DNA of 48,286 nucleotides from Bacteroidota bacterium (GCA_018266475.1 JAFEAI010000266.1:1-48286), one strand, 5' to 3'; shown: positions 28,985-39,105, numbered from the stretch's first letter. Program-made: numbers and translations. Notes: generated by a model not told the origin, from the letters alone.

Positions 28985-28992
28985 TACCTTTG
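28985..28992 (+). promoter_or_regulatory. Bacteroidota -7 box (TACCTTTG) before the signal peptidase pair
   Basis: TACCTTTG matches the consensus exactly and lies between the dapB stop and the first lepB ATG (29056). There is no TTG at the -33 position. It suggests that the lepB genes can be transcribed independently of DUF5683-dapB. Confidence 0.5.
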
Positions 28993-29055
28993 CAACTTTT
29001 AGCCCCGGATAGCAAGTTCCTTGCCCACCTTGCGCCCCGCCTTCACCACCTGCCC

Positions 29056-30615
29056 ATGATCGCCTGGTTCCTTCTTGCCCTCTACATCGCCGCCTTGTTC
29101 ATCTGCCTGCCGAAGATCTTCGCCAAGGCCGGTGAAGCTGCCTGGAAAGGCGCCGTGCCCCTGTACAACCTGGTGGTATGGAACAAGATCCTCGGGAAGC
29201 CTTGGTACTGGCTGGTCCTGTTGCTGGTGCCCGGGGTGAACCTGCTGATGCTCATCATCTACAATGTGAACACCAGCATCGCGCTCGGCAAACGCACGCT
29301 GAAGGAGCATGTGATCATGGTGCTCGTGCCCTGGGTGGAACTGTCAAACCTGGCCTTCCACCCCAAGTACAAATGGGTGGGCCCCATCCCTCCCGGGCAG
29401 CGCAAGCGCAACCTCCTTGGCCAGTGGGGCGATGCCATTCTCTTCGCCGTGATCGTGGCCACCGCGTTCCGCGCCTTCACCTTCGAGGCCTTCACTATCC
29501 CCACCGAATCCATGGAAAAATCCCTGCTCGTGGGCGATTACCTGTTCGTAAGCAAGCTCAGCTACGGCCCGCGCCTGCCCATGACGCCGGTTACCTTCCC
29601 CTTCACCCACCACACCCTGCCGCTTACCGACCACACGCCCAGCTTCACCAACTGGTTCAAGCTGCCGTACATGCGCCTGCCCGGCTTTGGCAAGCCCCAA
29701 AAGGGCGATGCCGTGGTGTTCAACTTTCCCGAAGGCGACACCGTGGTGGCCAACTTCCAGAACATGAGCTACTACCAGCTAGTGCGCATGAGCGGACGGG
29801 ACAACCTGGTGAACCGCCACCGCGTGGTGTTCACCCTGCCCGATGGCCGCAAGGGCAGCAGGCCCGCCGGCGACATCCTGGTGCGCCCGGTGGACAAGCA
29901 GGAAAACTACATCAAGCGCTGCGTGGGCACACCGGGGGACACCATCGAGGTGGTGGACGGCGTGGTACACGTCAACAGCAAGGCGGAACCGCTGGTGGCC
30001 ACCGGCCAGTATGCCTACGATTTCGTGGTCAAGGACCCCTTCAACAAGCGGGTGCTCAAGGACCAGTACGACATCACCACCACGGACGTCACTGAGGATA
30101 ACGGCATCGCCGAGATCCCCTTGACGGCCAGCAACGCCGAAGCACTTGGCAAATTCGGAAACGTGGTGAGCATGACGCGCGAAGACAAGCCCCGTGGAGC
30201 GTATGGCGCCAAGGACTTCTGGCCCATCTTCCCCAACAACCCCGCCTTCAATTGGAGCGAGGACAACTTCGGCCCGCTGTGGATTCCCAAGGCCGGTGCC
30301 TCCATCAAGCTCACCGCCGCCAACCTGCCGCTGTACCGGCGCGCCATTACGGCCTATGAAGGCAACACGCTGGATGAAAAGAACGGATCCATCTGGATCA
30401 ATGGTGTGCAAACGGACACCTACACCTTCAAGCAGGACTACTATTGGATGATGGGCGACAACCGCCACCGCTCGCAGGATTCGCGCTTCTGGGGCTTTGT
30501 GCCCTACGACCACGTGGTGGGCAAGGCCGTACTGGTTTGGCTTACGGTGGACCCCGAGAAAGGCGGCTTCCCCTCGGGCATCCGCTGGAAGCGGTTGTTC
30601 ACCCGGGTGCGATGA
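29056..30615 (+). CDS. lepB: Signal peptidase I with N-terminal membrane extension
   Basis: A 519-residue type I signal peptidase. An N-terminal DUF5684-like region with about three membrane helices (1-100) precedes the S26 peptidase domain. The catalytic Ser is S152 in TIPTESMEKSL, the general-base Lys is K287 in YIKRCVGTPGD, and MGDNRHRSQDSRFWG is the conserved box E. A large insertion lies between Lys and box E. It removes signal peptides from exported proteins at the outer face of the inner membrane, including the many secreted proteins of this window. The start at 29056 begins the first helix. It overlaps the second peptidase as ATGA. Confidence 0.94.
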   Translation: MIAWFLLALYIAALFICLPKIFAKAGEAAWKGAVPLYNLVVWNKILGKPWYWLVLLLVPGVNLLMLIIYNVNTSIALGKRTLKEHVIMVLVPWVELSNLAFHPKYKWVGPIPPGQRKRNLLGQWGDAILFAVIVATAFRAFTFEAFTIPTESMEKSLLVGDYLFVSKLSYGPRLPMTPVTFPFTHHTLPLTDHTPSFTNWFKLPYMRLPGFGKPQKGDAVVFNFPEGDTVVANFQNMSYYQLVRMSGRDNLVNRHRVVFTLPDGRKGSRPAGDILVRPVDKQENYIKRCVGTPGDTIEVVDGVVHVNSKAEPLVATGQYAYDFVVKDPFNKRVLKDQYDITTTDVTEDNGIAEIPLTASNAEALGKFGNVVSMTREDKPRGAYGAKDFWPIFPNNPAFNWSEDNFGPLWIPKAGASIKLTAANLPLYRRAITAYEGNTLDEKNGSIWINGVQTDTYTFKQDYYWMMGDNRHRSQDSRFWGFVPYDHVVGKAVLVWLTVDPEKGGFPSGIRWKRLFTRVR

Positions 30616-31547
30616 AGCTGGCCGGGAGGCTGAAAAAAATCCCCGAATGGGGCCAGGCCCTCCTGCTCGCCTTGGGCTTGCTGCTGCTGCTGCACTTGTT
30701 CGTCCTTCGCTGGGTAACGGTGCGCAGCACCAGCATGTACGCCACGCTGCTGCCCGGCGACCTGGTGGGCGTGGAACGGTGGGCCGCCTGGACCGGCCTG
30801 CACCGCGGCGACATCGCCGTGTTCCACGATCCCGTGCAGGACGACCGCCCCATGCACCAACGGCAATTGCTGGTGAAGCGCATTGCCGGAGGACCTGGTG
30901 ACGTAGTGGAGATCCGGGATGGAAACCTGTTCGTCAACGGCATCGCCGTGCCCCCCGCCCCCGGCCAAACCGGGCGGTGGATGGTCCGCCTGAAGGAAGG
31001 AACCGATGCCAGCGGGCTGCTGGCGCAGATCGGCCTGCCCGCCGATTACGTGCTTGCTGGCCGCACCGTTTTTGAACTTCCCTTGAACGAGGCCCTGGCC
31101 GCCCGCCTGCGGAAGCTGCCCGAAGTGGAGGATGCCGACCTGCAGGGAAGCAGCCGCCGGGCGGCAAACAACCTGTTTCCCTTCGGCCCCAACTTCCGAT
31201 GGAACAATGACAACTACGGCCCCCTCCACGTGCCTGCCGCAGGGGATACGGTGGATATAACCCCGTACACCCTGCCGATCTACGACCGCATCATCAGCCG
31301 GTACGAGCAAAATGTCCTGGCCGCCACCGGCAAGGAACTCACGATCAATGGCAAGGCGGCCAACCGCTATGTCATCCGCAAAAACTACTACTTCGTCCTT
31401 GGCGACAGCCGAGATTTCAGCGCCGATTCCCGCTACTGGGGCTTCGTTCCCGGGGATCATCTTGTGGGCCGCGCCTCCTTTGTACTGCTCAATGCACGGT
31501 CCTTTGGCGGGCATCCCGTACAAGGGCGCATCCTCAAAGGCCTGTAG
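30612..31547 (+). CDS. lepB: Second signal peptidase I
   Basis: A 311-residue S26 signal peptidase with a single N-terminal membrane anchor (about 15-32). The catalytic Ser is S41 in RSTSMYATLLPGD, the Lys is K89 in LLVKRIAGGPGD, and LGDSRDFSADSRYWG is box E. All catalytic elements are intact, so this is a second active peptidase, not a relic. It lacks the N-terminal extension of its neighbour, and the two differ widely in sequence, which argues for old paralogs with divided substrates. Start fixed by the four-base overlap with the first gene. Confidence 0.93.
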   Translation: MKLAGRLKKIPEWGQALLLALGLLLLLHLFVLRWVTVRSTSMYATLLPGDLVGVERWAAWTGLHRGDIAVFHDPVQDDRPMHQRQLLVKRIAGGPGDVVEIRDGNLFVNGIAVPPAPGQTGRWMVRLKEGTDASGLLAQIGLPADYVLAGRTVFELPLNEALAARLRKLPEVEDADLQGSSRRAANNLFPFGPNFRWNNDNYGPLHVPAAGDTVDITPYTLPIYDRIISRYEQNVLAATGKELTINGKAANRYVIRKNYYFVLGDSRDFSADSRYWGFVPGDHLVGRASFVLLNARSFGGHPVQGRILKGL

Positions 31548-32735: not shown

Positions 32736-32766
32736 TTGCGCCCGTACCACGGTTCCTGTACATTTG
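32736..32766 (+). promoter_or_regulatory. Complete Bacteroidota promoter (TTG, 20 bases, TACATTTG)
   Basis: TTG (32736-32738) is followed after exactly 20 bases by TACATTTG (32759-32766), matching the -33/-7 promoter described for Bacteroidota (TTTG or TTG, 19-21 bases, TAnnTTTG). The T9SS type A gene starts 18 bases downstream at 32785. This is the clearest promoter in the window. Confidence 0.75.
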
Positions 32767-32784
32767 TCCTACATCCCGTGCATC

Positions 32785-33570
32785 ATGAAGACGCCCTTCC
32801 TCCGCAAGTCAGCAGCACTCCTCGCGCTGGTGGCAGCCACCGCATCCGTTCAAGCCGCCGACGTGGACATCACCATGGCGGCGAACAACAACGGCCAGCT
32901 GGAAGTGAAACTGAGGCCATCCGCCAACTTTGACGGCATGGTGAGCAGCCTGGTGATCACCTTGAAATGGGATGCCTCCAGCGAAGCGCACCTGGGTGCC
33001 ATCCAGCAGGACCAGCCTGCGGCCACCTACCTGCCCATCAGCCGCAGCGGCGGCGAGCAGGACGATGCCGGCAGCCGCTACCAGATCTTCGTGGGCTTCG
33101 GCATGACGCCCATGCAGTGGGTGCCCACCGACTGGGTGGCAGGCCAGGAATACACCGTGATGACCATTCCGGTAACCGGCACGGCGGAGTTCAGCTTGGT
33201 GAACAACACGTGGACCAACCTGAACAACGCGGACTACTACCTGGCGCTCGGCGGGCTGGACGAAACCGGGACGATCTATGGCGATATCACCACCGGAGTG
33301 GTGGCCGGGGAAGCCGGGGCAACCGGGCTCTCCGTGGTGCCCAACCCCACCGACAAGGCCACCCTGGTGACCATGGAACTGCGCAAGCCGCAGGACCTGA
33401 AGCTGGACCTGCTGAACGCCGCCGGCCAGTCGGTGTGGAAGGATGTGCGGCCCAATGCCAGCGGCACGCTGCGCATTCCACTGGACATGTCCTCCTTGGA
33501 CAAGGGCGTATACCTGTTGCGCGTGCAAAGTGCCGAACGGACGGTAACGCAGCGCGTGGTAAAGCGGTAA
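32785..33570 (+). CDS. Secreted protein with T9SS type A C-terminal sorting domain
   Basis: A 261-residue secreted protein with a signal peptide (KSAALLALVAATASVQAA, cleavage near VQAAD). The middle (about 24-180) is a beta-rich, cohesin-like domain with no enzymatic motif. The last 80 residues, starting LSVVPNPTDKATL and ending with LDKGVYLLRVQSAERT and a basic tail, are a canonical T9SS type A sorting domain. It would be exported through T9SS and linked to the surface or released. The start at 32785 fits a consensus promoter just upstream. Confidence 0.87.
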   Translation: MKTPFLRKSAALLALVAATASVQAADVDITMAANNNGQLEVKLRPSANFDGMVSSLVITLKWDASSEAHLGAIQQDQPAATYLPISRSGGEQDDAGSRYQIFVGFGMTPMQWVPTDWVAGQEYTVMTIPVTGTAEFSLVNNTWTNLNNADYYLALGGLDETGTIYGDITTGVVAGEAGATGLSVVPNPTDKATLVTMELRKPQDLKLDLLNAAGQSVWKDVRPNASGTLRIPLDMSSLDKGVYLLRVQSAERTVTQRVVKR

Positions 33571-33803: not shown

Positions 33804-36800
33804 TCAGGCAGTGGCGGCCACCATTTCAAGCTGCATGGCCGCGAAAAACCGCTCGTTGGGCCTCATCCCGTCATCGCCGAGGCTGAACATCGGCTTCAGG
33901 CGGCGGACGAAGTACATGTCGATCTTCCCCTTGTTCTTGGCCTCCACCTGGCCGCGGTGCTCACACTCGAAGTAATCCTTCACCAAGTGATAGGTGGTGC
34001 CGCTAACATTCACCTCCCCGGGTGCGCCGCTGCTTTCCATGCGGCTTGCGGTGTTCACGGTATCGCCCCAAATGTCGTAGGCGAACTTGCGCTTGCCCAC
34101 CACCCCGGCCACCACGGGCCCGGAGTGCAGGCCGATGCGCAGCACCCATGCCGCACCGTTCGACCCGTTCCGTTCAGCATGCCACCGGATCATCTCCTCG
34201 CGTACGTCCATGGCGGCCATCACGGCCCGCAGGGCATGGCCTTCCACCGTGGCGGGCAGGCCGCACGCGCTCATGTAGCTGTCGCCGATGGTCTTTATCT
34301 TTTCGATGCCGTAGCGGGCCGTAATGTGGTCGAATCGCACGAAGCATTCGTCCAGCTCGGCCACCAATTGCTCCGGGGTCATCTTCTCGGCGATGGTGGT
34401 AAAGCCCTTCATGTCGGTGAACATCACGGTCACCTCGTTGAACCGCCGCGCCGTGGCCTTGCCGGTTTCCTGCAGTTCGTCGCTCACGGCCTTGGGCAAG
34501 ATGTTCAGCAGCAGTTCCTCAATGCGCACCTTTTGGCCCGCTATCTGTTCGCTCTTGGCGCGCACTTCGGCCGTACGCTCCTCCACCCGCTGCTCCAGCA
34601 CCATGTTGCGCAGGCGCAATTGGCGTTCACGCAGCTTCACATAGCTGATGGCCCCGCTGATGGCCACAATGGCGGCAAGCGACAGGAACCACCAGCTCTT
34701 GTACCAGGGCGGAAGGATGGTGAACCTCAACTCCGCAGGATGTTCGCTGAAGAGCCCTGAACGCCCCATGGCCTTCACCTTGAACACATAATCGCCGGGC
34801 GGAAGCGCGGGGTAGTGTACATCGGTCTCCCCCGTCACCGGCTGCCAAGCTTTGTCCAGCCCATCGAGGATGTATTGGTAGCGCACCGCCTCGGGATCGC
34901 TCAGGCTCACGCTGCCGTATTCGATCCGCAGGTTGTTGTCTCCATGGCCAAGTTCCAAGTTGCCCCAGGATGGCCGGTCCTCCAGGTTGATCTTCAATCC
35001 GCGGATGGCCACCATGGGCGGCATCAGGCGCTCCTGGCCGGCCGGGGGCGCCACAAGCACGGCGCCATTGGCGGTGCCGAACCAGAGGTCGCCATTGGCC
35101 GCAAGCAAGGCACTGTTGGGCTTGGCCTCAATGCCGGTAAATCCGCTGCGCGCGGTGTACCGGATAAAGCGGCCCTGGTCCGGCACCCATTCGTTCAATC
35201 CCTGGCTGGTGCCCACCCAAATATGGCCGTCCTTGTCCGCTACCATGGACCGGATGGAATTGCTGACCAGTCCGTCATCCACCGTGTATTCAGCAACCTT
35301 CAGTCCGTTCTGCACCACAAGTATGCCCCTCCCTTCGGTGCCCACCCACAGGCGGCCTTGGCCATCCTCGCTGATGCAGGTGGGGCTGTAGGTGAAGCCC
35401 AGGTCGAGCGCCTTGGCCGAAGAACCGTCCACCCTGCTGATCCCGCTTCCGGTACTGCCCGCCCAGATCACGCCATTACGGTCCTTGTACAAGGTGGAGA
35501 TGTGTTCGCCGGGCAGGCCATCGGCCACATGCAGCACGGTGGGCACCGTGCCCTCGCGGTGGTGCGCCAGTCCATTGATGGTGCCCACCCACAGGTCCCC
35601 GTTGGCCCCGGTGGCCAATGCCGTCACCTTGTTCTCGGCAATGCTGCCGGCGAGTTCCAGGCGGTTGCTGGGCTTGAACGTTCTGGGGTCGAAATCGAAG
35701 AGCCCCCCGTCCTCGGTGCCGATCCATATATGCCCGCGTTCATCCTCGGCGAGGGCGCGCACATGGTTGCTGGTGAGCAATCCGTCCTGCATGGTCAGGT
35801 GGCGCACGGAGGATGCCCCGTTGGCCCCCGGCACCAGGATGGTGATGCCGCCGTTGGTACCGAACCAAATGGTGCCGTCGCGCGGTTCGGTCACCGCCCA
35901 CACCTGGCGGTCCACGAGGTGATCATCCTCGGTGAATGAGCGGAAACGCTCCCCCTTGAACACATCGAGACCCGCATCGTGCGTGCCGACCACCATGTTT
36001 CCCTCGCGGTCGCGCAGCAGGCAGCGAATGCGTTGGCTGTGTGTGCCATTGCCGGTATTGAAGCGGCGGATCCCTCCTTTTTCAATGCGGGCCAAGCCAT
36101 TGTCCCAGGTGCCTGCCCATACCCGCCCTTGGTCGTCCTGGCTGAAGCACATGACGAAGTTGCTGGGGAACGCGGTGGCAATGTCATACGTGGTTGCTTC
36201 ACCCGTTCCATGGTCGAGGCGGACCGCTCCATTGCTTTGGGTACCTATCCATAGGTTTCCTTCCCGGTCCTGGAAAAGGGCGGTGATGCCGGCCACCACG
36301 GGCATGCCTTTTGGCGTGAAGGGTGTGAAGCGGGATTTGCCGGGGTCCCATTCCTTGAGGCCGCCCTGGGCTTCCAGGAAGATGAGTCGGCCATCGTTCA
36401 GGGTGGTGATGCCGGTGATGCGGGAACTGATGCCGCCCTGTTCGGTGATGTGCGCTGCATGCACCGTGCCGTCCTTTGGCACATCCGCAAAGCGGTAGGC
36501 CCCATCGCCGAAGGTGGCCACCCACACCTGCCCCTGGCTGTCCTGCGCGATGGCGGTAATATCCTTGGCAGGCTGGGCATCGGCCAGTTTGAGCGGCCTG
36601 AAGCGGCCCCCTTCGGCCAGGCTGATGCCGCCCCCGAGATGGCCGGCCCACAGGCGCAAGGACCTGTCGAGAAAGAGGGTGCGCACGCCATTTGGCGCCA
36701 GCTGGTCGGCGGTGCCGAAGTTCCTTACCTTATTGCCGTCATAGCTGGCCAGGCCCGCCTCGGTACCTGCCCAAAGCATGCCGGTGCTGTCCTGCAGCAG

Positions 36801-36923
36801 TGCATACACCTTGGAAGCGGGCAGGCCGTCACGCACGGCCACGTTCTCGAAGAAGTAGCGTTGTGCGCCGGCGGGCAACGCCAGGGATGCGCAAACGGCT
36901 ATCGGGATCAAACGTTGGAGCAT
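33804..36923 (-). CDS. Two-component-regulator-type beta-propeller/Y_Y_Y receptor fused to a class III adenylate cyclase
   Basis: A 1039-residue membrane receptor. Signal peptide MLQRLIPIAVCASLALPAGAQ; then about 620 residues of beta-propeller repeats (LWAGTEAG, LWIGTQSNG, IWIGTEDGG and similar); a Y_Y_Y domain (about 645-730); a membrane helix (about 740-760); a coiled coil (about 765-805); and a cyclase domain (about 825-1000). All class III residues are visible: metal Asp D837 and D881, substrate K877 and D950 (the ATP-specifying pair), N957 and R961. It should make cAMP in response to an outside signal. Propeller receptors usually carry kinases; here a cyclase replaces them. I chose ATG 36923 because it starts the signal peptide. 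The gene follows the caspase-like gene by 28 bases. Confidence 0.92.
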   Translation of the reverse strand: MLQRLIPIAVCASLALPAGAQRYFFENVAVRDGLPASKVYALLQDSTGMLWAGTEAGLASYDGNKVRNFGTADQLAPNGVRTLFLDRSLRLWAGHLGGGISLAEGGRFRPLKLADAQPAKDITAIAQDSQGQVWVATFGDGAYRFADVPKDGTVHAAHITEQGGISSRITGITTLNDGRLIFLEAQGGLKEWDPGKSRFTPFTPKGMPVVAGITALFQDREGNLWIGTQSNGAVRLDHGTGEATTYDIATAFPSNFVMCFSQDDQGRVWAGTWDNGLARIEKGGIRRFNTGNGTHSQRIRCLLRDREGNMVVGTHDAGLDVFKGERFRSFTEDDHLVDRQVWAVTEPRDGTIWFGTNGGITILVPGANGASSVRHLTMQDGLLTSNHVRALAEDERGHIWIGTEDGGLFDFDPRTFKPSNRLELAGSIAENKVTALATGANGDLWVGTINGLAHHREGTVPTVLHVADGLPGEHISTLYKDRNGVIWAGSTGSGISRVDGSSAKALDLGFTYSPTCISEDGQGRLWVGTEGRGILVVQNGLKVAEYTVDDGLVSNSIRSMVADKDGHIWVGTSQGLNEWVPDQGRFIRYTARSGFTGIEAKPNSALLAANGDLWFGTANGAVLVAPPAGQERLMPPMVAIRGLKINLEDRPSWGNLELGHGDNNLRIEYGSVSLSDPEAVRYQYILDGLDKAWQPVTGETDVHYPALPPGDYVFKVKAMGRSGLFSEHPAELRFTILPPWYKSWWFLSLAAIVAISGAISYVKLRERQLRLRNMVLEQRVEERTAEVRAKSEQIAGQKVRIEELLLNILPKAVSDELQETGKATARRFNEVTVMFTDMKGFTTIAEKMTPEQLVAELDECFVRFDHITARYGIEKIKTIGDSYMSACGLPATVEGHALRAVMAAMDVREEMIRWHAERNGSNGAAWVLRIGLHSGPVVAGVVGKRKFAYDIWGDTVNTASRMESSGAPGEVNVSGTTYHLVKDYFECEHRGQVEAKNKGKIDMYFVRRLKPMFSLGDDGMRPNERFFAAMQLEMVAATA

Positions 36924-36951
36924 GCGCCAAATGGCATTTGCCCGGCGGCCG

Positions 36952-39105
36952 TCACCGGGTAAGTTCATAGAAGCTCGGGTCGTTTCCGGCGGCATCGCTC
37001 ACCACCAGCGTGGTCTTCACGCTCTCGCTGTAGTTCTCCATCAGCCCTTTCAAGGGGCCGTAGTTGTAGAACGAGTACACATCGTCGGCCTTTCCGTCCA
37101 CCGGTATCCAATAGGCCTTTCCGCCCTCGCTGCGGCCGTGCCCCTCGTACCACACCAGCAGGGTGTTCACTTGCGAGCCGCGCACCTGGTCCCGCAGTTC
37201 GATGTTGAAGAACCGCTCCATCTCGGCCTTGGATAAGTTTTTCTTCACCACCGTGCGCTGGGCCTGGTATTTGGAGAATGCCTTCCGCATCTTGTCCATT
37301 CCCAAGCTGCCCAATGCGGGCATGTTGCGGTAATTGCTGTTTTCAATGTAGACCACCCAGGTGTTTCCCATGGGCGATGCGGCCTTCTCCGGGTCGGCCT
37401 TGGGGGCGGCGGCTGCCACTACGGGTGCTGCGCGCTTAATGGTGCAAAGCCGTTCGGTGACATTGCCGTAGTTGTCCTCGGCGCGCACCGTAAAGCGGTC
37501 CTTTCCGGCCAGGTCCAGCTTGATGCTGAAGTCGGTGGCGGTGGTGTCCGGCATGAAGCTGGCGAACTTGCCGTCCACCGTTACGGACCGGATGCCGCTG
37601 GGATCGCTGGCCCGTCCTTCCACGAAGATCTGGTCCTTGTCCGCAGGCAAGGTGGCTGTGCCGTCGGCAGCCACGGCGGGCTGTGTTACCAGCAGTGCCG
37701 GGGGATCGGCCTCGGTGCGCTGCACGTTCAGGGAGATCGCGGACCGGTTGCCGTACACATCCTCGGCAACCACCTCAATGGCTTTTGCCTGCGGGGCAAG
37801 GGGGATGGTGGCGCGGAACTCCGGGGAGCGGTCCTCGGGGTCAAAATCGGCGGGTACGCCTTGTACCAGGATGGTTTTGATCGGGCTTTTGTCACGGACA
37901 TGGCCGGCCACTTTCACGGTTGCCAACGCGCTGCTCACCTGCACCAGGTTGTCCTTGCGCATGGGTTCCACCACGGTTACCACCGGCGGGTCGCCCTCGC
38001 GGTTGGCCTCGAACACACGCAGCTGCACCCGTTCCTTGCTGGCGGTTATGGCCTTCAGGTCAGCAGGGGTCCAAGCATCCGGATGCGCCTTTATCTGTTT
38101 TTCGGCCAGGCCGAGGTCCTTGGCGGCGCGTTCCAGGTCCAGGTTGGCCTCGCTGCATTCGGCGCGCAGCAGCAGGAAGCGCACATTGTCCGGGTATTGC
38201 AGCAACAGCTTGTTGATGTCGTTCACCGCGTTCTGCTCCTGGCCGAAGCCGTGGTAATACAGGGCGCGCTGGTAGTAGACCACGGAATCTTCGCGCCCCA
38301 GGGCCACGCACTTGCTCACGTCGTCCACGGCTTTTGCAAATTCCTTTTGGAGGGCAAATGCCTTGCTGCGGACAATGAGCAGGTCCGTGCCGGAGGGGTT
38401 CAGCTCCAGCCCCCTGGAGCAGCGGTCAATGGCTTTTTCCAGCGCCCGGATCTGCATGGACACGCCGCGGAATCCCGCATGCAGGCGCAGTTGGCATTCT
38501 GCCGAGGCCACATACGCGGCCTCATAGAGCGGGTTCCATTGCAGCACCTTGTCCAGGTCGGCATCGGCAGTGGCGTAGTCGGCGGAGGCCATGCGGCTGA
38601 GGGCATGCAGGTAGTAGGTGTCGGTGGTGGCTTTTTGCGAGAGGGCGGCATCGGCGGAAGCCACGGCGCAGGCCACGTCCCTCAGGTCCAGGCAGGCCCT
38701 GGTCTTGGCCTGTAGTGCGGGCATGCTCTTTGGCGCCACGCCCAACGCGGCATCGGCGTATTGCCTGGCCTTTGCCGGCTGATGGGCGTCCAGGCAGGCT
38801 TCGGCGGTGGTGGTAAGGATGGCGGCATCGCGCGGGGCCAGCTTGGCCACCTCTTCGAGGTCCGCCATGCGTTCATCCAAGCGGCCCATGTCCAAATACA
38901 AAGCTGCGCGGCCTTGGCGCGCCTTCACATATTCCGGATTTACGCGGATGGCAAACCCGTATTGTTCCAGGGCCGCGTCAAGTTGGCCTGCGGCACGCAA
39001 TTTCTCAGCCTCTTTCACAAAGGCCTTTCCATCCTGGGCAAGGCCCAAGCAGGTACTGATGCACAATGAAGCCGCAAGGCATGCGCGGATGGCCTGGTGG
39101 AACAT
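36952..39105 (-). CDS. TPR and caspase-like (C14) protein with substituted catalytic Cys
   Basis: A 717-residue protein. Signal peptide at about 1-23 (LGLAQ), then TPR repeats (about 24-330), two Ig-like modules (about 360-560), and a C-terminal caspase-like domain from about 590. The catalytic His is present (Y-E-G-H656-G), but where caspases have DAC the protein reads SDAAGND (703-709), so the Cys is A706. The chain ends 11 residues later, leaving out the second half of a normal p10-like region. It is therefore a probable pseudo-protease. It precedes the propeller-cyclase gene with a 28-base gap, so the two likely act together. Probably periplasmic. Confidence 0.87.
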   Translation of the reverse strand: MFHQAIRACLAASLCISTCLGLAQDGKAFVKEAEKLRAAGQLDAALEQYGFAIRVNPEYVKARQGRAALYLDMGRLDERMADLEEVAKLAPRDAAILTTTAEACLDAHQPAKARQYADAALGVAPKSMPALQAKTRACLDLRDVACAVASADAALSQKATTDTYYLHALSRMASADYATADADLDKVLQWNPLYEAAYVASAECQLRLHAGFRGVSMQIRALEKAIDRCSRGLELNPSGTDLLIVRSKAFALQKEFAKAVDDVSKCVALGREDSVVYYQRALYYHGFGQEQNAVNDINKLLLQYPDNVRFLLLRAECSEANLDLERAAKDLGLAEKQIKAHPDAWTPADLKAITASKERVQLRVFEANREGDPPVVTVVEPMRKDNLVQVSSALATVKVAGHVRDKSPIKTILVQGVPADFDPEDRSPEFRATIPLAPQAKAIEVVAEDVYGNRSAISLNVQRTEADPPALLVTQPAVAADGTATLPADKDQIFVEGRASDPSGIRSVTVDGKFASFMPDTTATDFSIKLDLAGKDRFTVRAEDNYGNVTERLCTIKRAAPVVAAAAPKADPEKAASPMGNTWVVYIENSNYRNMPALGSLGMDKMRKAFSKYQAQRTVVKKNLSKAEMERFFNIELRDQVRGSQVNTLLVWYEGHGRSEGGKAYWIPVDGKADDVYSFYNYGPLKGLMENYSESVKTTLVVSDAAGNDPSFYELTR

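Follow-up and report, generated by a model that had tools for sequence, protein, structure and literature searches.

Most discussion of bacterial caspase homologues concerns cell death or stress, with cyanobacteria as the main setting. That a caspase fold without catalytic activity can persist as a binding partner with a regulatory role is familiar from animals, in which cytosolic pseudo-caspases of the c-FLIP type control caspase-8. Among prokaryotic caspase homologues, pseudo-orthocaspases are defined by a p20 domain without p10 and by loss of the catalytic dyad, and in the survey by Klemencic et al. (2019, PMC6426788) no more than 10 of 1078 Bacteroidetes sequences are counted as pseudo-variants. 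On the receptor side, the hybrid two-component or 'two-component regulator propeller' receptors of Bacteroidota resemble in build the receptor described here, sharing with it the periplasmic Reg_prop and Y_Y_Y parts and a single transmembrane helix beside the output.

Both kinds of protein meet in two neighbouring genes, A and B, of the window, i.e. the whole stretch of 48,286 nucleotides of Bacteroidota DNA that was analysed. According to the original prediction, two ORFs lie here 28 bases apart on one strand, and both were indeed found at that place on the minus strand. While the longest ORF of gene B starts at 36995 and overlaps gene A by 44 nt, the ATG at 36923 puts the signal peptide at the extreme N-terminus and leaves a gap to A of exactly 28 nt. 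The features of the two genes are as follows.

36952-39105, minus strand: gene A, 717 aa, exported TPR/Ig-like/pseudo-caspase protein
39034-39105, minus strand: signal peptide of A (aa 1-24), by hydropathy, also in the relatives sampled
38005-39033, minus strand: TPR superhelix of A (aa ~25-367), by Pfam TPR, AlphaFold helices and Foldseek TPR matches
37426-37992, minus strand: two Ig-like beta-sandwich domains of A (aa ~372-560), by a Glucodextran_B match and model strands 375-559
36955-37374, minus strand: caspase p20-like domain of A (aa ~578-717), ending just past the catalytic-Cys position
37138-37140, minus strand: His656 of A, the caspase dyad His (GHG), kept in the window protein
36988-36990, minus strand: Ala706 of A at the catalytic Cys position (DAAG versus DACE in active relatives)
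36924-36951, minus strand: spacer from A stop to B start, 28 nt
33804-36923, minus strand: gene B, 1039 aa, propeller-receptor adenylate cyclase
36861-36923, minus strand: signal peptide of B (aa 1-21), by sequence and N-terminal position
34914-36860, minus strand: periplasmic regulator-propeller region of B, Pfam Reg_prop in 9 stretches, E 1e-62
34713-34901, minus strand: Y_Y_Y domain of B, Pfam PF07495, E 9e-13
34632-34688, minus strand: transmembrane helix of B (aa 746-764 of the 1039-aa form), hydropathy peak
33906-34451, minus strand: class III adenylate cyclase domain of B, by PF00211 Guanylate_cyc, catalytic residue alignment and PDB adenylate cyclases

Judged from its sequence, the 28-nt spacer is too short for a separate promoter, and A and B are probably co-transcribed. 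An Rfam search gave no match. In the surroundings, a tandem pair of signal peptidase I (LepB-like) genes occupies 28990-31547 on the plus strand, and lepB homologues adjoin the A/B locus in congeners as well. A small exported protein with a C-terminal sorting domain of the type IX secretion (T9SS) type is encoded just downstream of B on the opposite strand (32764-33570); this T9SS-CTD gene is found in several congeners, including ones without A and B (L271, L272). With somewhat more confidence than doubt, A and B are read here as one transmembrane signalling module in which the dead-caspase protein A would regulate the cyclase of B, and whose ancestor would have been an active caspase paired with a SpoIIE output.

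Within the window's genus, the only one sampled for its order, B lies directly downstream of A in 39 of the 42 genomes with A (the window's own included); in the remaining three, the contig breaks off within A. Three congeners have neither A nor an orthologous B. In G020 and G029, both ~99% complete, recN, fabI, the T9SS-CTD gene, nudix and lepB follow each other in order with both A and B absent, leaving no room for either gene between fabI and the T9SS-CTD gene. Since the whole A/B region is syntenic within the genus, adjacency there is not independent evidence, and the stronger evidence comes from outside it. A genome-wide scan yielded 280 relatives of A, 80 of which were kept as loci; a propeller gene sits directly downstream of A in 76 of these, and of the four exceptions, two lie at contig ends. 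The two families adjoin in the same order and on the same strand in nine or more families of the class, and hence the pairing is not due to chance. Flanking genes, named by eye from sequence, vary from fabI in the window's genus to ribD-like, algH, pyrH, dnaK or others elsewhere, and the upstream neighbours of A differ between lineages while the A/B pair stays. Conserved adjacency of the two families, set beforehand as the test of the pairing, is thus seen in almost every congener and recurs, with different flanks, in many unrelated Bacteroidota.

Outside the genus, the partner of A combines Reg_prop with SpoIIE (PP2C), the PP2C catalytic Asp residues being present and Y_Y_Y being detected in two of the three partners scanned. 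Among the 80 loci, 49 hold a dyad-intact A with a complete SpoIIE partner and 15 a truncated A with a complete cyclase partner, and no mixed combination of caspase and output occurs. When the class was surveyed further, 12 complete SpoIIE pairs came up, a few of them from genomes that recur under a different label, together with a single pair broken by a frameshift; the dyad is intact in all of these. The form with pseudo-caspase and cyclase is seen only in the window's genus. Hence, of the signalling module as first proposed, the conserved pairing stands, and its pseudo-caspase/cyclase make-up is corrected to a derived form of a wider caspase/propeller-SpoIIE pair.

Unpaired copies of A occur in several families (among them f3 and f62, and as further copies f27 and f41). 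In the unpaired A proteins of f3 (L262, L263, L265, L266, L267), His and Cys are both lost with the full-length domain kept, and in these sequences dead caspases are taken to have arisen a second time within the A family; in the second A copies of f27 (L081, L083, L264), the catalytic Cys is replaced by Thr and no propeller gene adjoins. There are also f3 genomes with A and a propeller-SpoIIE gene on different contigs (L076 with L206; L079 with L207), in which the pair appears to have been split. Unpaired copies, together with propeller-cyclases without A (L086, L087, L089), which indicate that B-type receptors can work alone, speak for a rival reading in which A and B share an operon without touching each other, A serving in the envelope as a scaffold or for peptide binding and being coupled to B in expression only, and B sensing its own ligand alone. 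This arrangement is considered rather unlikely, as the pair is conserved over long range across changing gene contexts and A and B are absent together. Both points fit the preferred reading, a joint signalling module.

Recognition of the caspase in A required relatives as well as a separate model of the last 143 residues. For A alone, no caspase was detected by Pfam and NCBIfam, Foldseek with the whole AlphaFold model (mean pLDDT 89) gave only TPR-type proteins among the matches listed, and the results of a PDB profile search were filled by TPR proteins. PF00656 matches all 22 of the 22 full-length A relatives aligned over the caspase region (best 4e-14); over the cut-off, it matches none of four A proteins of the window's genus and nothing in the whole window genome. 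With the model of residues 575-717 (mean pLDDT 71), caspases fill the best 50 VIA rows, and caspase-1 is aligned over 128 residues at 3.4 Å (VIA-align Z 13.6) in a match whose last caspase-1 residue is 290, shortly after the catalytic Cys285; the best Foldseek match is MALT1 (5.9e-6). This Z score, the exchange of Cys for Ala706 and the N-terminal signal peptide seen by hydropathy confirm the earlier description of A as an inactive caspase fold with a signal peptide. In terms of C14 caspases, the p20 fold is present and the His-Cys dyad is not, and with p20 lacking p10 and the dyad lost, A is a pseudo-orthocaspase.

The A protein ends 11 residues after Ala706, at a point where distant relatives with GHG and DACE continue in the alignment for ~70 more residues. 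A sequencing error or pseudogene as cause of the truncation was rejected, because the same end is common to the aligned congeners with different stop codons. The p20 region is the slowest-evolving part of A, with dN/dS of 0.09-0.15 versus 0.13-0.23 elsewhere in a comparison limited to usable (unsaturated) dS. These low ratios mark it as a retained non-catalytic domain instead of a decaying one, and they show purifying selection acting on the dead caspase. For the same reason, it is improbable that the dead caspase is a decaying vestige of the ancestral caspase-phosphatase system, without a present role and leaving B as a stand-alone cyclase receptor: although the Cys is gone, some congeners have Ala or Leu for the dyad His (GAG, GLG) and the entire C-terminal part is missing, no region of A is more conserved than the truncated domain (dN/dS about 0.1), and the C-terminal motif S-x-[YF]-[ED]-L-[TS]-R-stop is preserved in every congener aligned. 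In the signalling module preferred here, the remaining p20 part would be in use.

Gene B had been described as a transmembrane receptor with a complete cyclase, and this holds: hydropathy gives one transmembrane helix only, PF00211 covers the whole domain (E 2.9e-54, profile 3-181 of 183), and the catalytic set is complete, comprising the metal Asp pair (FTD, GDS), the Lys/Asp pair (EKIKT, YDIWG) and the transition-state Asn and Arg. The full set is likewise present in the alignment of all paired cyclases of the genus. The Lys/Asp pair is the adenine-specifying one, as expected for ATP, and the solved structures closest to the domain are adenylate cyclases; the product is probably cAMP. Four other close cyclase genes, and at least five class III cyclase genes in all, are present in the window genome, and its four cNMP-binding (Crp/Fnr-like) proteins (L208-L211) display no canonical cAMP pocket by eye. 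It is very improbable that A and B are a form of the PorZ/PorU-type surface machinery that serves type IX secretion or LPS attachment instead of signalling. PorZ matches below threshold, for B and for one SpoIIE partner, the T9SS-CTD gene adjoining the locus and the hand-over of A-LPS from PorZ to the PorU sortase (PMC8545088) do point that way. However, the PorZ score (NCBIfam NF052228) is 86 against a cut-off of 260 bits and is explained by shared propeller repeats, B has, unlike PorZ, a transmembrane helix and an output in the cytoplasm (cyclase or SpoIIE), and the T9SS-CTD gene is present without A and B in G020 and G029.

How the signalling module came by its cyclase can be read from the trees. 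The sensors of the cyclase partners form one clade (100*) nested in the SpoIIE-linked sensors (joint clade 100*), and the AU test rejects a constrained grouping with the orphan propeller-cyclases (p 0.0075). The cyclase domains of B type, in turn, group with those of the orphan propeller-cyclases (98/95), long branches being flagged in this tree. Taken together, the sensor tree, the AU test and the cyclase-domain tree mean that a sensor already in place received a new output domain; as far as phylogeny can tell, they show a SpoIIE output swapped in place for a cyclase, in the lineage in which the caspase died. Replacement of the whole SpoIIE receptor gene by a cyclase receptor was also considered and is rejected by the sensor tree and the AU test. 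The A tree shows the window's A descending from the same family as the SpoIIE-linked ones, and on it the dyad was lost three times, each time without an adjacent SpoIIE gene (in the window's genus and in two unpaired lineages). These losses hint that proteolysis goes with the phosphatase version, three losses being too few for statistical power, and caspase death and cyclase gain on one branch (n=1) are associated, not proven to be linked.

In the proposed mechanism, exported A would work in the periplasm as co-receptor or regulatory subunit for the propeller/Y_Y_Y ectodomain of B, acting via its TPR, Ig-like and dead p20 parts. A itself, or a ligand presented by A, would bind the ectodomain and the signal would pass through the single transmembrane helix to a homodimeric class III cyclase, which would make cAMP; the physical contact of A and B and the direction of the signal are presumed in this scheme. 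The ancestral form would have joined a dyad-intact caspase to a SpoIIE (PP2C) phosphatase output, with the active caspase probably gating or processing receptor or ligand. In the window's genus, the output changed to a cyclase and the caspase lost its Cys and the remainder of the catalytic half, so that what is left may be a conserved non-catalytic binding module. More tentatively, an exported caspase may control a propeller receptor with PP2C output in many Bacteroidota and one Chlorobiota-labelled MAG, the window's lineage possibly having rewired this system to a cyclase and a dead allosteric subunit. An exported, conserved caspase-fold protein tied to one receptor family offers a testable signalling role, and the natural swap of phosphatase for cyclase under the same sensor, in the lineage in which the protease died, is a ready experiment on the purpose of proteolytic activity that also bears on how receptor ectodomains drive different outputs.

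While all parts are of known kinds, the conserved two-gene pair is apparently undescribed. In the papers searched, no description of the A/B pair was found in either version, and a word search in surveys of prokaryotic caspase homologues gave no mention of a cyclase partner and, for all but the second survey, which was searched for a cyclase only, none of SpoIIE. What is new is that a receptor comes with an exported partner of caspase fold and that its output can be exchanged. Compared with the propeller receptors of two-component type, B has a class III cyclase where HisKA, REC or HTH_AraC outputs would stand (no Pfam match to HisKA, receiver or HTH was obtained in B) and a separate exported partner of caspase fold. 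The ancestral partner of A resembles SiaA and other SpoIIE (PP2C) membrane phosphatase receptors in being a membrane receptor with SpoIIE output, and NCBIfam SiaA matches one SpoIIE partner over the phosphatase with 198 bits at a cut-off of 700; the partners of A differ by their propeller/Y_Y_Y sensor and the caspase beside them, and the window's output is a cyclase. PorZ has no transmembrane helix or cytoplasmic output, and PorU, whose peptidase fold is of clan CD, is an active sortase; nevertheless, a propeller/Y_Y_Y-like protein likewise works there with a peptidase-fold protein (PMC5121618, PMC8545088). The notion of a dead-caspase regulator is shared with c-FLIP, the homology being limited to the fold. 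Comparable to A are the (pseudo-)orthocaspases (PMC6426788), likewise of p20 fold without p10 and, in the pseudo-forms, with the dyad lost, although the A family shows Cys exchanged for Ala with His mostly kept (His/Ala in the window) instead of the Tyr/Ser pattern. Unlike orthocaspases, A is exported, cut just past the Cys position, missed by Pfam C14 and paired with a receptor gene.
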